This document shows, piece after piece, positions 6,679-12,073 of a stretch of DNA of 36,608 nt; within the stretch, counting starts at the first letter, position 1, and every line of letters begins with the position of its first letter. The stretch is from an uncultured Desulfobulbaceae bacterium. GTDB taxonomy: Bacteria > Desulfobacterota > Desulfobulbia > Desulfobulbales > BM004. Position numbers and translations under genes: made by a program. The notes under the pieces are model-generated. The model ran no database searches and was not told where the DNA came from. It saw only the letters and a list, made by a program, of their open reading frames with translations. The stretch is taken from assembly GCA_945787325.1 (NCBI GenBank), contig CALZHP010000024.1, positions 1 through 36,608 of the forward strand, given 5' to 3'.

Positions 6679-8823
6679 TCAATTAGCTGCAATTGGCTGG
6701 GTTCCAAACAGTTCATTATATGAAATGAATTTTTCGAAAATGTGATATCCGTCGTGAAGCTTTATTATAGAACTTGGCGTAAATAGTGGGAGAGACGAAA
6801 CTGAATCATTAATCTGTTTCAACAGAGTTTGTGTCTCCAACTTTCCAATATAACCGCCGTTAGTATAAAAGGGTGCCATGGAGTTTTTGCCGGCCAATTT
6901 CACGAAGTCCTGCCCGTTCTTGAGATTTTCCAGGATTTGTCCAGCGAGTTCTTCAGTCGGAACAACAATCTGGCGTAGGTAAAGCGAAGTTCCTTCCCCT
7001 TCCCGCAAGTCAATGTTGAAATCCGGTGCTATCTGTTGCAGTTCATCGAGAACAGCAGTTTCCGAGTGATCAAGAGCCTTCGCAAGCTTTGCGCATTTCC
7101 ATGCTTTATCAAAATTCTTCTGCTGGATAAAAATTACAGCCATATTGTAATATACCCATCCAAATCCTGGATTCAGCTGGAGTGCTTGAATATACTGCTC
7201 CATTGCCTGGTCAAGCTCCTGGTTGGCATGATAAATTATCCCAAGTGACGCATATTTCATTGAGTCTCTTGGTTTTAGCTGAACCGATTTTTTCATCATC
7301 TGTACAGCCTTTTCCATGTCTCCTTTCTGGACAAGGACTATAGAGAGGTTTTCATAAGAGTTTGAATTGTCAGGGTCAAGCCGGATAGCTTCTTCATACT
7401 CTGCAACCGCCAGGTTTAATTTTCCTTCTTTTGCATATCTGTTGCCGTTGAAAAAATGATCAACCGCTTTTTGTACTTTGTTGTCAGAGTCATCTGTTTC
7501 CGGTGAGTCTTCACCGGAACTGCCAGTCTCATCAGGAACGGAAAGATCTTTGGCGCTGATATCCGTGGGTTTGTTTTCTTGTTCCTGTAACTCTTTGCGT
7601 AGTAAAGGAAGATTTTTCTGTGCTTCTATATCCCCCTGGTCAGCAGCTTTCTCGAGCCAGAATATTGATTTTTTCAGGTCTTTATCAACCCCTTCCCCAT
7701 TATAATACAAGGTAGCAAGATCATACTGGGCGTTTAGATGGTTGTTTTCGGCAGCTTTATGAAGCCAATAAACACTTTTATCCAAGTCTTTTTCGGTAAC
7801 TTGTCCTTTGAAAAATATTGATGCTATATTGTACTGAGCATCAGCATGGTCCATTTCTGCAGAATTCTGGAGCCATTTAAGTGCCAGTTCAGGATCGTTA
7901 ATAATACCCTTGCCGTTTAAATAGATAAGGCCAAGGTTATTCTGAGCGGCAGCGTCACCCTGTTCGGAAGCCATCTTGAACCATTGTGCTGCAGCAACTA
8001 CGTCTTTTTCGACTCCCTGACCGTTGAGTGTCATAAGGCCCAGGTTGTTTTGCGCAGCAACATGTCCGTTTTCTGCTGCTTTTTTGAACCAATCAGCGGC
8101 TTTTTTCAGGTTTTTCTCAACACCTCTGCCTTTAAGATATTGCATTCCTTTCTCAAACTGGTCCGCTGGATTTTCCGGAGTGGTTTCTTGACGATCATCT
8201 AGGTGGGCGATATTTTCTAAAGATTTACTTGATTTGGCCGGCTTAATGGATTTATTCAAAAGGCGTTTACTGTAATGTTGGGCTCTGGGATAATCTAGTT
8301 TAGCAGCTTTCTGATACCAGTATAGGGCCTGTGCTTCATCTTTATTAACGCCTATACCTTTTTCGTACATCATTCCCAGGTACGTTTGTCCCCTGGCATA
8401 ACCTTTTACAGCAGTTTCTCTGTACAATTTAATAGCCTTGGAGAAGTCTTTTTCTACCCCGACTCCAGTTTCGTACAGAATGCCGAGATTCACCTTTGCT
8501 CTTAATAGTCCCTGATCCGCAGCCTTTTGATAGAGTGTTGCTGCTTTTGATGGGTCTTTGCGGGTGCCGAGACCCATCTCGTGCATTACACCAAGTGCTC
8601 TTTGACCGTCGGCATAACCTTGTTCCGCAGCTTTTTCAAACCAAGAGTAAGCCTTTGCATAATTTTTATTTACACCTTTACCTTTCAAGAATGCTTCGCC
8701 GAGTTTTACTTGGGCTTTAGCGGAACCGTTCTGGGCTTTTTCAGTGAGATCGTCGATTCTGCCAGCGTGTACTTCGGTACAGAATAAGAAGATAATACAG
8801 GTGAGATAGATGAGAGTTTTCAT
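6679..8823 (-). CDS. Periplasmic Sel1-repeat / TPR protein with C-terminal parvulin-like domain
   Basis: The predicted 714-residue protein starts with a signal peptide (MKTLIYLTCIIFLFCTEVHA). Nine Sel1-like repeats of about 36 residues follow (each with AQxxLGxxYxxGxGVxKD...A..W), in blocks of four and five separated by a polar linker (about 165-215). About four canonical TPRs follow (AVAEYEEAIRLDPDN, AVQMMKKSVQLKPRD, AMEQYIQALQLNPG). The last 100 residues resemble a PpiC-type parvulin domain (LRQIVVPTEELAGQI, NGGYIGKL, DGYHIFEKF). I chose ATG 8823, because it has aaggaggt just upstream and begins the signal peptide; a TTG 33 bp upstream is a weaker alternative. It lies 91 bp behind the Csd4-like gene on the same strand, so it may help organise peptidoglycan-editing enzymes; that role is inferred. 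Confidence 0.82.
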   Translation of the reverse strand: MKTLIYLTCIIFLFCTEVHAGRIDDLTEKAQNGSAKAQVKLGEAFLKGKGVNKNYAKAYSWFEKAAEQGYADGQRALGVMHEMGLGTRKDPSKAATLYQKAADQGLLRAKVNLGILYETGVGVEKDFSKAIKLYRETAVKGYARGQTYLGMMYEKGIGVNKDEAQALYWYQKAAKLDYPRAQHYSKRLLNKSIKPAKSSKSLENIAHLDDRQETTPENPADQFEKGMQYLKGRGVEKNLKKAADWFKKAAENGHVAAQNNLGLMTLNGQGVEKDVVAAAQWFKMASEQGDAAAQNNLGLIYLNGKGIINDPELALKWLQNSAEMDHADAQYNIASIFFKGQVTEKDLDKSVYWLHKAAENNHLNAQYDLATLYYNGEGVDKDLKKSIFWLEKAADQGDIEAQKNLPLLRKELQEQENKPTDISAKDLSVPDETGSSGEDSPETDDSDNKVQKAVDHFFNGNRYAKEGKLNLAVAEYEEAIRLDPDNSNSYENLSIVLVQKGDMEKAVQMMKKSVQLKPRDSMKYASLGIIYHANQELDQAMEQYIQALQLNPGFGWVYYNMAVIFIQQKNFDKAWKCAKLAKALDHSETAVLDELQQIAPDFNIDLREGEGTSLYLRQIVVPTEELAGQILENLKNGQDFVKLAGKNSMAPFYTNGGYIGKLETQTLLKQINDSVSSLPLFTPSSIIKLHDGYHIFEKFISYNELFGTQPIAAN

Positions 8824-8914: not shown

Positions 8915-10408
8915 TCAGTTAGTTTTAAGTTCTATCCAGAATTTGCCGATGGGTTTTTCATTATAGGTCGCCACTACAGGGTACCTCTTCCCCTTGCCAT
9001 TTTCAGAATATCTCTTCCATAAATCCTGGTCGGTATAAATAGGATAGTGTAGATCATTACCATCATTTGTGGATTTGGGTGGAGCAAAACCCTTAAAGTT
9101 CAATAAAACTTCACTGTCGAACCTGGCAACGTTGGTGCGAATTCCTTTGAGGGTAATTCGAGCACCATTTCGTATTTTAAGAGTTTTCCCTTCCTCTACA
9201 GTAAGCAATTGATCATCAACGTTAACCATGATTTCACTTGCCTTCAGATTTTTTTCTGAAATTTTTGTAGCTTTCTGAATTGCTGAGGAAGATTTTGGTA
9301 CTATATTGACCCAACCACACTGCAAAGCATCTTTTCGTACTACAATCTTAGTTTTTTGAGATATCCTAAAAGGGATATTGGTGTCGTTTCTAGTGCCAAC
9401 TCCCTCCACATCTGCAACCAGACCACGCTCATAGTTGGCAATTATGTCAGTTACGACAACATCATCTCCAGGATCAATAGCTAAATCAGAACCATGCGGC
9501 AGAGCATATGATGGTCCTCCATTTATTTTTACAAGCAAATAATCCAGCTTAGGCTGATCAACGTTTATTCCCGGTGAGTCAAGAATAATTCCGAATTCGG
9601 ACATGAAGGTATTAATAACAAGTTTGTGGAGTCCGATCTTGGTTTCAAGAGATTTTATAGTTTTTGATGTTTCCACTCCGAAAGCAGGAATACCAGCCCT
9701 GGTCAACGCATAAAAAGTAGCCGACTTTCTCTGTTCCGGATGCCGAGTATTTTTTGAAATAGTATCATGATTATTGGGCCGGAAATGATACCTTTTTTCT
9801 TTTATCTGGCTGTTTACCTTTTCCACAACAGTTTTAGCCAGTTTACCAAGCTCAATGTCCACGTTTTTCTGGGAATTCCTGAATACCTCAGAGTCATAAA
9901 TTATTGACTGGCCGTAACGGTTGGGGTTTTCCTGGTTGCTGATCCATTTTGGTGAATAGAATCCGGAACCCTCATGGAGATTGAGCAGGCAGTCGCTTTC
10001 CGCGATCAGATGTTTGAGGACAGCGACAACCTCGTCCTCAAGGTTAGTCTTTGCTTTACTTTTTTCTTTGGGATCGAACTTGCGATTCATATCTCCAGTG
10101 AGGCCGTTGCGACGGTTCAGGAGAATTGAGTAGAAATTGGCTCGGGGAACGACAATCAGATTCCCTTTTTTCAAGTGTATATCAGCATATAAATCGGCAG
10201 TCATGTATCCTCCGGGTTCATCACCCTGGATACCTCCGATGATCATTATTGTTTTGCCAACTTCCTCGCCAAATATACGATACACATTTAGTTCATGGTC
10301 GGTATTTTCCAGAAAAACTTCATGACGAATCTGTGCTCCAGCAACACCTGTCATAAAGGGTGCCACCAGGGTCAGAGTAAGAACTGAAAGGAGAATCTTC
10401 CTGATCAT
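8915..10408 (-). CDS. M99-family D,L-carboxypeptidase, Csd4/Pgp1-like
   Basis: A 497-residue exported protein (signal peptide of about 25 residues ending GAQ). The catalytic domain carries GGIQGDEPGG, placing Gln61 and Glu64 as zinc ligands, with His145 in LHEGSG as the third. The unusual Gln-x-x-Glu...His set is the hallmark of Csd4, the Helicobacter pylori peptidoglycan carboxypeptidase, rather than ordinary M14 enzymes with His-x-x-Glu. Glu246 (FGVETSK) sits where the catalytic glutamate is expected. Two or three beta-rich C-terminal domains follow (about 280-497), as in Csd4. Csd4/Pgp1 removes meso-diaminopimelate from muramyl tripeptides to leave dipeptides and sets helical or curved cell shape. 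It begins 15 bp after the Csd6-like gene, so the two form an operon. Confidence 0.85.
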   Translation of the reverse strand: MIRKILLSVLTLTLVAPFMTGVAGAQIRHEVFLENTDHELNVYRIFGEEVGKTIMIIGGIQGDEPGGYMTADLYADIHLKKGNLIVVPRANFYSILLNRRNGLTGDMNRKFDPKEKSKAKTNLEDEVVAVLKHLIAESDCLLNLHEGSGFYSPKWISNQENPNRYGQSIIYDSEVFRNSQKNVDIELGKLAKTVVEKVNSQIKEKRYHFRPNNHDTISKNTRHPEQRKSATFYALTRAGIPAFGVETSKTIKSLETKIGLHKLVINTFMSEFGIILDSPGINVDQPKLDYLLVKINGGPSYALPHGSDLAIDPGDDVVVTDIIANYERGLVADVEGVGTRNDTNIPFRISQKTKIVVRKDALQCGWVNIVPKSSSAIQKATKISEKNLKASEIMVNVDDQLLTVEEGKTLKIRNGARITLKGIRTNVARFDSEVLLNFKGFAPPKSTNDGNDLHYPIYTDQDLWKRYSENGKGKRYPVVATYNEKPIGKFWIELKTN

Positions 10409-10423
10409 ATAGCTGCTATTCCC

Positions 10424-12073
10424 TTATCTTCTTTGAGCCCATAGTTCACGTCTTATACCCCATGAGTCATCTTTATAAACGAGATGCAGTGTTTTTCTTC
10501 CTACAGCATTGTATTTATCAGACTTGTAAACTTGATCAAACGAGGCAGTTGCACCTTTTTTTGACCAGCTGATCTTGATATCTGATACGGTTACGCTAAT
10601 CGTCGCGTACTTTTTATTTAGACGTTCCTTGTGAGTCTTCCATGCCTTGAGGTCTTTTTTCCCTTGTTTGAATGAACTATCATAAGAACCTATATAGGTG
10701 TCAATGTCTTTAGACTGCCATGCTAAACGCCATTTCTTGATAAAATTGACAACTATTTGTTTATCACGAGGATATCCATAAGTTATCTTTACTTTATTGG
10801 GAGGTTCAATGTTGGCCTTGGGGGAGGATTCTGTTGATTCTATTTTATTAACTTCATCAGAAGTCGACTGTTCGGCCCGCACATCTAATTTAGTGGGTTC
10901 TGGTTTGGGCTGAATCTCTTTTAGTGGTTTGACAATAGGTGGAGTGGGTGCAGGTGGTGGCACAGGCAAAGGCTTAGGTGCCAGTTCTGGTGCAGGTTTG
11001 ATTATTGGTTTAGGTGTTGGAGCAGGAACTGGTGGTGCTTCGATCTTTACAGGTGGTTCGCGAAGGGGTTGTATTTTCGCAGTGCTTTGCTCACGAACAG
11101 CAGCAACCACTGTCTGTTTCTGTAACGGAGGTGCACTTGCAATCATTTCGATTGAATGTGTTACAGGTTTGTGCATAACAACTTTAATTGGGTACTTGGG
11201 AAATATCTGCACAGGAGTAGTTTGCAGTATCTGCTTTCTTGTTTGCCATCCTTGCCCTGTGACGTATTCTAAATAACTTCTACTGTATCCCCGCATCCTG
11301 GTATAATTGTGTTGGCGATAGACATATTCGCCAACGGCAACAGTTTTGTTGCCATCATTTAGCATGTACAGATGATCAAAAGTCACCTTGTCGGGGTCAA
11401 TACTATCAGGAAGTAATAGTTTTTTTGCTGTTGAGAAATCATTACCAGTTGGGTTGCTTGCTATGTCCCGCTGCAGGAAGTTGAAATCTTCAACAATAAC
11501 GACAGGAGTTATAGCTTTTCCCAAATATTTTTCAAGCATATCCAGGTCGTTATTCCGCATAGTGATACAGCCGTTGGTGCTGTTCGGTTTTAATTCCTTG
11601 TTGGTGCCGTGGATATATATTCCGTCGCCATTTCGTCCAACAGCTTTGTCATAGATATTTGGATAGTCGAGGTGAAAGGCGCGATTACCAAAAATGGTGA
11701 TCTTATTGTCTTTGAATTCCCTTGTGATAAAGTAAATTCCTTCAGGAGTTCTTGAGTCTCCACTTATCAATTTTCTTCCAGAATTTTCACCAGTCGCACT
11801 GGTGAACTGAGCAACAACTTTAAGTGTGCCATCGTGTTCGAGAACTTGGAGCTGTTGTTTCTTTTTGTTGACAAGTACAAGATGTATGGGCTCTTTGACT
11901 TCGTCCACAACAAAGAAATCGTTTAACAATTTATCAATATTGGGTTGTTGCTCTGAATCTTTATTTTTGGAAAATATCGAGAAAAAAGGTTTTGACCCGA
12001 AGGCAGAATTGCTGGGGACTAATAGGGTAAGAAAAAAAAGAAGAACGATCAGGGAGAGATTACGTTGTTTCAT
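10424..12073 (-). CDS. YkuD-fold L,D-carboxypeptidase/transpeptidase with NTF2-like tail, Csd6/Pgp2-like
   Basis: The 549-residue protein begins with a signal peptide (residues 1-25), then a YkuD-fold catalytic domain (about 60-200) with His155 in HGT and the nucleophile Cys169 in STNGCITM. A Pro/Lys-rich linker (about 338-395) leads to an NTF2-like domain (about 437-549, FIKKWRLAWQSKDIDTYIGSY). This YkuD plus NTF2 layout is that of Csd6 (H. pylori) and Pgp2 (Campylobacter), which remove the terminal D-Ala of muramyl tetrapeptides, and of the curvature enzyme Bd1075 of Bdellovibrio. The Pro-rich linker makes it longer than those, perhaps to span the cell wall. ATG 12073 was preferred to a TTG 24 bp upstream because the signal peptide starts there. 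The Csd4-like gene follows 15 bp later. Confidence 0.85.
   Translation of the reverse strand: MKQRNLSLIVLLFFLTLLVPSNSAFGSKPFFSIFSKNKDSEQQPNIDKLLNDFFVVDEVKEPIHLVLVNKKKQQLQVLEHDGTLKVVAQFTSATGENSGRKLISGDSRTPEGIYFITREFKDNKITIFGNRAFHLDYPNIYDKAVGRNGDGIYIHGTNKELKPNSTNGCITMRNNDLDMLEKYLGKAITPVVIVEDFNFLQRDIASNPTGNDFSTAKKLLLPDSIDPDKVTFDHLYMLNDGNKTVAVGEYVYRQHNYTRMRGYSRSYLEYVTGQGWQTRKQILQTTPVQIFPKYPIKVVMHKPVTHSIEMIASAPPLQKQTVVAAVREQSTAKIQPLREPPVKIEAPPVPAPTPKPIIKPAPELAPKPLPVPPPAPTPPIVKPLKEIQPKPEPTKLDVRAEQSTSDEVNKIESTESSPKANIEPPNKVKITYGYPRDKQIVVNFIKKWRLAWQSKDIDTYIGSYDSSFKQGKKDLKAWKTHKERLNKKYATISVTVSDIKISWSKKGATASFDQVYKSDKYNAVGRKTLHLVYKDDSWGIRRELWAQRR

Follow-up and report, generated by a model that had tools for sequence, protein, structure and literature searches.

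What would a pair of adjacent genes for predicted peptidoglycan-trimming enzymes do in an uncultured, sulfate-reducing Desulfobulbaceae bacterium, when in Helicobacter, Campylobacter and Bdellovibrio such enzymes are known and are encoded apart? The placing of an enzyme of this kind on one side of the cell has been discussed as unsolved (PMC8938487). In the window (the whole stretch of 36,608 nucleotides analysed here), two intact co-directional open reading frames lie on the minus strand, the YkuD + NTF2 gene upstream and the Peptidase_M99 gene downstream, with the 15-nt spacing that the first-pass annotation had given. Both proteins start with a signal-peptide-like segment, as read from the sequence. 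The features of the locus are as follows.

10424..12073, minus strand: Csd6/Bd1075-like secreted YkuD + NTF2 protein, 549 aa counted from ATG, predicted LD-carboxypeptidase (Pfam YkuD and Cds6_C over cut-off; best PDB relatives)
11495..11881, minus strand: YkuD catalytic domain, residues 65-193 (His155 at 11609-11611, Cys169 at 11567-11569)
11204..11407, minus strand: middle region, residues ~223-290 (alignment with the two-NTF2 relatives L103 and L086)
10889..11053, minus strand: proline-rich linker, residues ~341-395 (read from the translation)
10448..10753, minus strand: Cds6_C NTF2-like domain, residues 441-542 (Pfam; Bd1075 alignment)
10409..10423, minus strand: intergenic gap, 15 nt
8915..10408, minus strand: Csd4-like Peptidase_M99 protein, 497 aa, predicted zinc DL-carboxypeptidase (PF17033; Csd4 4q6m)
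9587..10255, minus strand: M99 catalytic domain, residues 52-274 (Gln61, Glu64, His145, Arg100, Arg109, Glu246)
6679..8823, minus strand: secreted Sel1/TPR/PPIC-type isomerase protein, probable operon follower (domain matches)

The Sel1-type follower also lies downstream of the M99 gene in related genomes (L062, L065, L068, L070 and L002). A related-locus search of genome contigs returned one relative, and consensus promoter and terminator scans at the locus stayed near the shuffled background. The pair itself recurs in the window's family with sat upstream (G036, G051 and G003), and because it is found both there and across the phylum, its occurrence is more than chance.

We searched the two proteins with the Peptidase_M99, YkuD and NTF2 models, as the first-pass annotation had suggested, and all three matched above their Pfam cut-offs. 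The upstream protein matched YkuD (7e-18, 66 bits against a cut-off of 23.4) and the Cds6_C NTF2-like family (3.1e-18, 66.5 bits against 27), in the domain order of the LD-carboxypeptidases Csd6, Pgp2 and Bd1075. Its best PDB relatives were Bd1075 (7o21, 1.9e-34, covering both domains), Csd6 (4xzz) and Pgp2 (6xj6). The catalytic Cys169 and His155 had been placed correctly and form the triad His155-Gly156...Cys169, with Thr171 at the position of the LD-transpeptidase Arg; neither Arg nor Asn occupied this position in any of 51 related proteins. Like Csd6 of H. pylori and Pgp2 of C. jejuni, the protein thus has a YkuD domain, a C-terminal NTF2-like domain and the His-Gly...Cys triad and is devoid of the transpeptidase Arg; unlike them, it has an extra middle region and a Pro-rich linker, and it is closer to Bd1075. 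The csd6 and pgp2 genes are not beside an M99 gene, whereas the window gene is, and bd1075, although its product is the best structural relative, is monocistronic (PMC8938487).

A different activity would be conceivable for such a protein, namely the release of proteins from peptidoglycan in the manner of DpaA, or 3-3 cross-linking by an LD-transpeptidase, with the M99 enzyme acting on other peptide ends. DpaA-like and Csd6-like enzymes are close, LD-carboxypeptidases and DpaA both being without the transpeptidase Arg (PMC8263019), and the protein gave a weak match to the NCBIfam DpaA model (NF040599). That match, however, reached 33.6 bits against an equivalog cut-off of 365, so far below it that we judged a DpaA identity unlikely, and the Thr in place of the Arg made an LD-transpeptidase identity unlikely as well. 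The NTF2 domain, the structural matches to LD-carboxypeptidases and the linked enzyme, which takes the product of an LD-carboxypeptidase as its substrate, also speak against either activity, and we regard this reading as improbable.

The likeness to Bd1075 extends to the C-terminal region, where Tyr516 and Trp545 align with Tyr274 and Trp303 of Bd1075. In Bdellovibrio, Trp303 is required for targeting to the convex face and for curvature; it is kept among Bdellovibrio homologues and missing in other LD-carboxypeptidases (PMC8938487). When we counted C-terminal tails by eye, the targeting Trp was present in ~37 operon-borne Csd6-type proteins, and therefore it is not confined to Bdellovibrio. 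Residues ~223-290 had no Pfam match; in the two-NTF2 relatives, the first NTF2 domain aligns with them over its C-terminal half, and they are possibly the remnant of such a domain. Two tandem Cds6_C NTF2 domains were seen in 23 of the 48 operon-borne Csd6-type proteins (e.g., L116:8639-10048).

The downstream protein matched Peptidase_M99 (PF17033) at 3.1e-35 and 122.4 bits, against a gathering cut-off of 27, and aligned with the Csd4 structure 4q6m at 2.9e-23. The zinc site was assigned from this alignment and the residue roles in PMC4220969. The metal residues Gln61, Glu64 and His145, at the positions first proposed, correspond to Gln46, Glu49 and His128 of Csd4, the substrate arginines Arg100 and Arg109 to Arg86 and Arg94, and the general base Glu246 to Glu222, so that all six active-site residues of Csd4 are kept. 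The Gln ligand had been described as rare; within M99 it is the usual residue, being present in 62 of the 69 proteins from our order and phylum samples (His in 6, Asp in 1). Glu64, His145 and Arg100 were invariant in all 69, and Arg109 and Glu246 were kept in 68. The six proteins with His (L096, L099, L108, L120, L123 and L129) are divergent, and their site is possibly a more usual carboxypeptidase site. The length of the window protein fits the three-domain layout of carboxypeptidase, beta-barrel and Ig-like domains, and beyond residue 285 a low-confidence model consists largely of beta structure. The two-row AlphaFold models of the window proteins, built with one relative each, had mean pLDDT values of 45 and 38 and were too poor to resolve the zinc site or the NTF2 fold.

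These residues also bear on whether the pair has decayed or taken another role in this lineage, for example as a non-catalytic scaffold. There is a nearby precedent, the locus L068, in which an M99 remnant without zinc ligands is fused to an NTF2 domain, but the window genes are intact with every catalytic residue present, and the window M99 is 63% identical to that of L002 with invariant catalytic motifs. We consider decay or such another role very improbable.

It might be expected that the M99 protein is the counterpart of Csd4 by descent, but the tree did not bear this out. H. pylori Csd4 grouped with 12 stand-alone Desulfobacterota M99 genes (support 100/99), whereas the window M99 fell in the other group of 52 rows (98/91), of which 45 are operon-borne. 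A tree without Csd4 gave a similar picture, and two genomes (G347 and G428) each carry one M99 of either clade. Being unrooted, and with a bootstrap that had not fully settled, the tree does not tell which clade is derived. Because it belongs to a separate, operon-borne clade, the window M99 is Csd4-like and not a Csd4 orthologue; it is of the same Pfam family as Csd4 and Pgp1 of C. jejuni, and function is carried over to it by residues and context, not by orthology. On this evidence the protein would work like Csd4 without being its orthologue. The presence of M99 outside the Epsilonproteobacteria is not in itself new, since Pgp1 has been reported from both epsilon- and delta-proteobacteria, chiefly from helical and vibrioid ones (PMC3310789).

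With both enzyme roles likely on sequence grounds, we infer the following activities, order of action and localisation. The two genes would be co-transcribed, and both products would reach the periplasm. There the YkuD-NTF2 protein, acting as an LD-carboxypeptidase guided by its NTF2 domain, would remove the terminal D-Ala from tetrapeptides, and the M99 protein, a zinc DL-carboxypeptidase, would then remove meso-DAP from the tripeptides to leave dipeptides. Such two-step trimming, which matches the way in which Pgp2 provides Pgp1 with its substrate in C. jejuni (PMC3961634), is the most likely reading, and we hold it to be probable. Trimming carried out locally would make the wall uneven and thereby affect cell shape, with curvature as the likeliest outcome. 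Trimming together with a role in shape has, in our estimate, about even chances.

To see how general the pair is, we surveyed two genome samples, 146 from the window's order and 297 from across the phylum. M99 was found in 13 of the order genomes and in 57 of the phylum genomes (55 over the cut-off), and Cds6_C in 14 and 74, respectively; among the phylum genomes with M99 over the cut-off, 54 of 55 also contained Cds6_C. In the survey of Desulfobacterota neighbourhoods, a Cds6_C (Csd6-type) gene lay directly upstream of M99 on the same strand in 46 of 69 M99 loci and downstream in none. At least one of the 23 unpaired loci is probably a contig break, since in G006 the two genes stand at facing contig ends. 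The statement that the two genes are not usually adjacent therefore stands for Helicobacter, Campylobacter and Bdellovibrio, but in the clade of the window M99 adjacency to a Csd6-type gene is the rule. The observation of an operon-borne pair of predicted trimming enzymes is thus confirmed, and we found no report of this operon in the open-access literature. That the operon is informative, as had been argued, gains strength from its wide conservation, from the bactofilin and M23 neighbours of related operons and from the targeting Trp of Bd1075.

A role of the pair in cell shape is plausible, and so is one in curvature; the organism itself may be vibrioid, as had been inferred. The patchy occurrence in the order would fit any dispensable trait, and the window locus has neither a bactofilin gene nor the third gene described below; the pair might trim peptidoglycan for maturation of the wall in general, for recycling or for adaptation to stress, and its carriers may be straight rods or ovals. 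Many operon-bearing Desulfobacterota may indeed not be curved. On the other hand, every characterised YkuD-NTF2 enzyme (Csd6, Pgp2 and Bd1075) and the two M99 enzymes determine cell shape (PMC4599014, PMC8938487, PMC3310789), and operons of this type are linked to bactofilin and M23 genes. We therefore regard a function in general wall upkeep as rather unlikely.

In a fuller form of the operon, a third gene, X, stands between the Csd6-type and M99 genes (29 loci). Protein X is 211-340 aa long and consists of a single TM helix near the N-terminus, a charged stretch that resembles a coiled coil, and a C-terminal domain that is conserved; it matched no Pfam family. The C-terminal domain is fused to the Csd6-type protein in L125 and L127, and G232 has one fused and one separate copy. 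X was found in 61 of the 297 phylum genomes; among 65 copies, 34 lay beside both Cds6_C and M99 and 10 beside Cds6_C alone. Bactofilin genes flanked 10 of the 46 operons compared with none of the 23 other M99 loci, and bactofilin was present in 58 of 60 X genomes compared with 191 of 297 overall, these counts, like those of X, treating related genomes as independent, so that p-values are no more than a guide. The gene order was Csd6-X-M99-M23-bactofilin in L116 and L121. In seven loci of the f33 family (L160-L166) that have no Cds6_C beside X, X neighbours bactofilin, and bactofilin was also near X in L158, L159 and L169. The seven loci are simple X-bactofilin pairs with no Csd6-type or M99 genes.

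The layout of X recalls the bactofilin-M23 systems LmdC-BacA and Csd1-CcmA. X shares with LmdC a short N-terminal tail, a TM helix and a coiled coil; where LmdC has M23, however, X has a different C-terminal domain, and it accompanies Csd6-type genes. An HMM of the X N-terminus matched both M23 genes of the window's genome (E 1.8e-4 and 2.3e-5), but a profile-profile comparison with the N-termini of LmdC-type M23 proteins did not support the similarity (probability 6.7%); we take a kinship of these N-termini as a lead only. The N-terminal tail of LmdC binds bactofilin (PMC10945521), and Csd4 physically interacts with the shape protein Csd5 (PMC4220969). By analogy, bactofilin, via X or otherwise, would place the trimming enzymes. 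In the fuller operon, bitopic X and the bactofilin and M23 partners would probably set the trimming along a cytoskeletal line. As a tentative proposal, to which we give somewhat less than even chances, this would be a self-contained Desulfobacterota shape operon in which X docks on cytoplasmic bactofilin filaments and positions the periplasmic Csd6-type and M99 enzymes, with dipeptide trimming along one line, the window representing its X-less form.

Consistent with an X-less form, X was absent from the window locus and no full-length copy was found in the window's genome. Its single bactofilin gene is on another contig and immediately follows an M23 gene with the layout of LmdC, so that the genome shares an M23-bactofilin pair with the known systems while the window locus itself has neither X nor bactofilin. 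The closest arrangement containing bactofilin is L122, with the order bactofilin-Csd6-M99, no X and an M99 of the window's subclade. Operons that bring the two enzymes together with bactofilin, M23 and a conserved membrane protein whose layout fits are a concrete candidate for the missing link between trimming and its placing. The pairing, common across the phylum and tied there to bactofilin genes and an undescribed membrane protein, can be tested as a candidate ready-made cell-shape module, and natural variants are at hand for comparison (complete operons, Csd6-X or X-bactofilin alone, and pairs lacking X such as that of the window). It is the wider operon, the one that includes X and bactofilin, that most deserves further attention.

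Related domains were also seen in other arrangements. In the window's genome, a second M23 gene, also LmdC-like, lies downstream of a co-directional gene whose secreted product has 990 aa (L145:1754-5633, G000 contig C69), and a coiled-coil protein carries a Cds6_C NTF2 domain without YkuD (L130, contig C121). In G051, the Csd6-type and M99 genes have between them a gene of 388 aa (L068:7850-9016) that encodes the fusion of an M99 remnant with a Cds6_C NTF2 domain; the zinc ligands of the remnant are lost, making the product a pseudoenzyme chimera.
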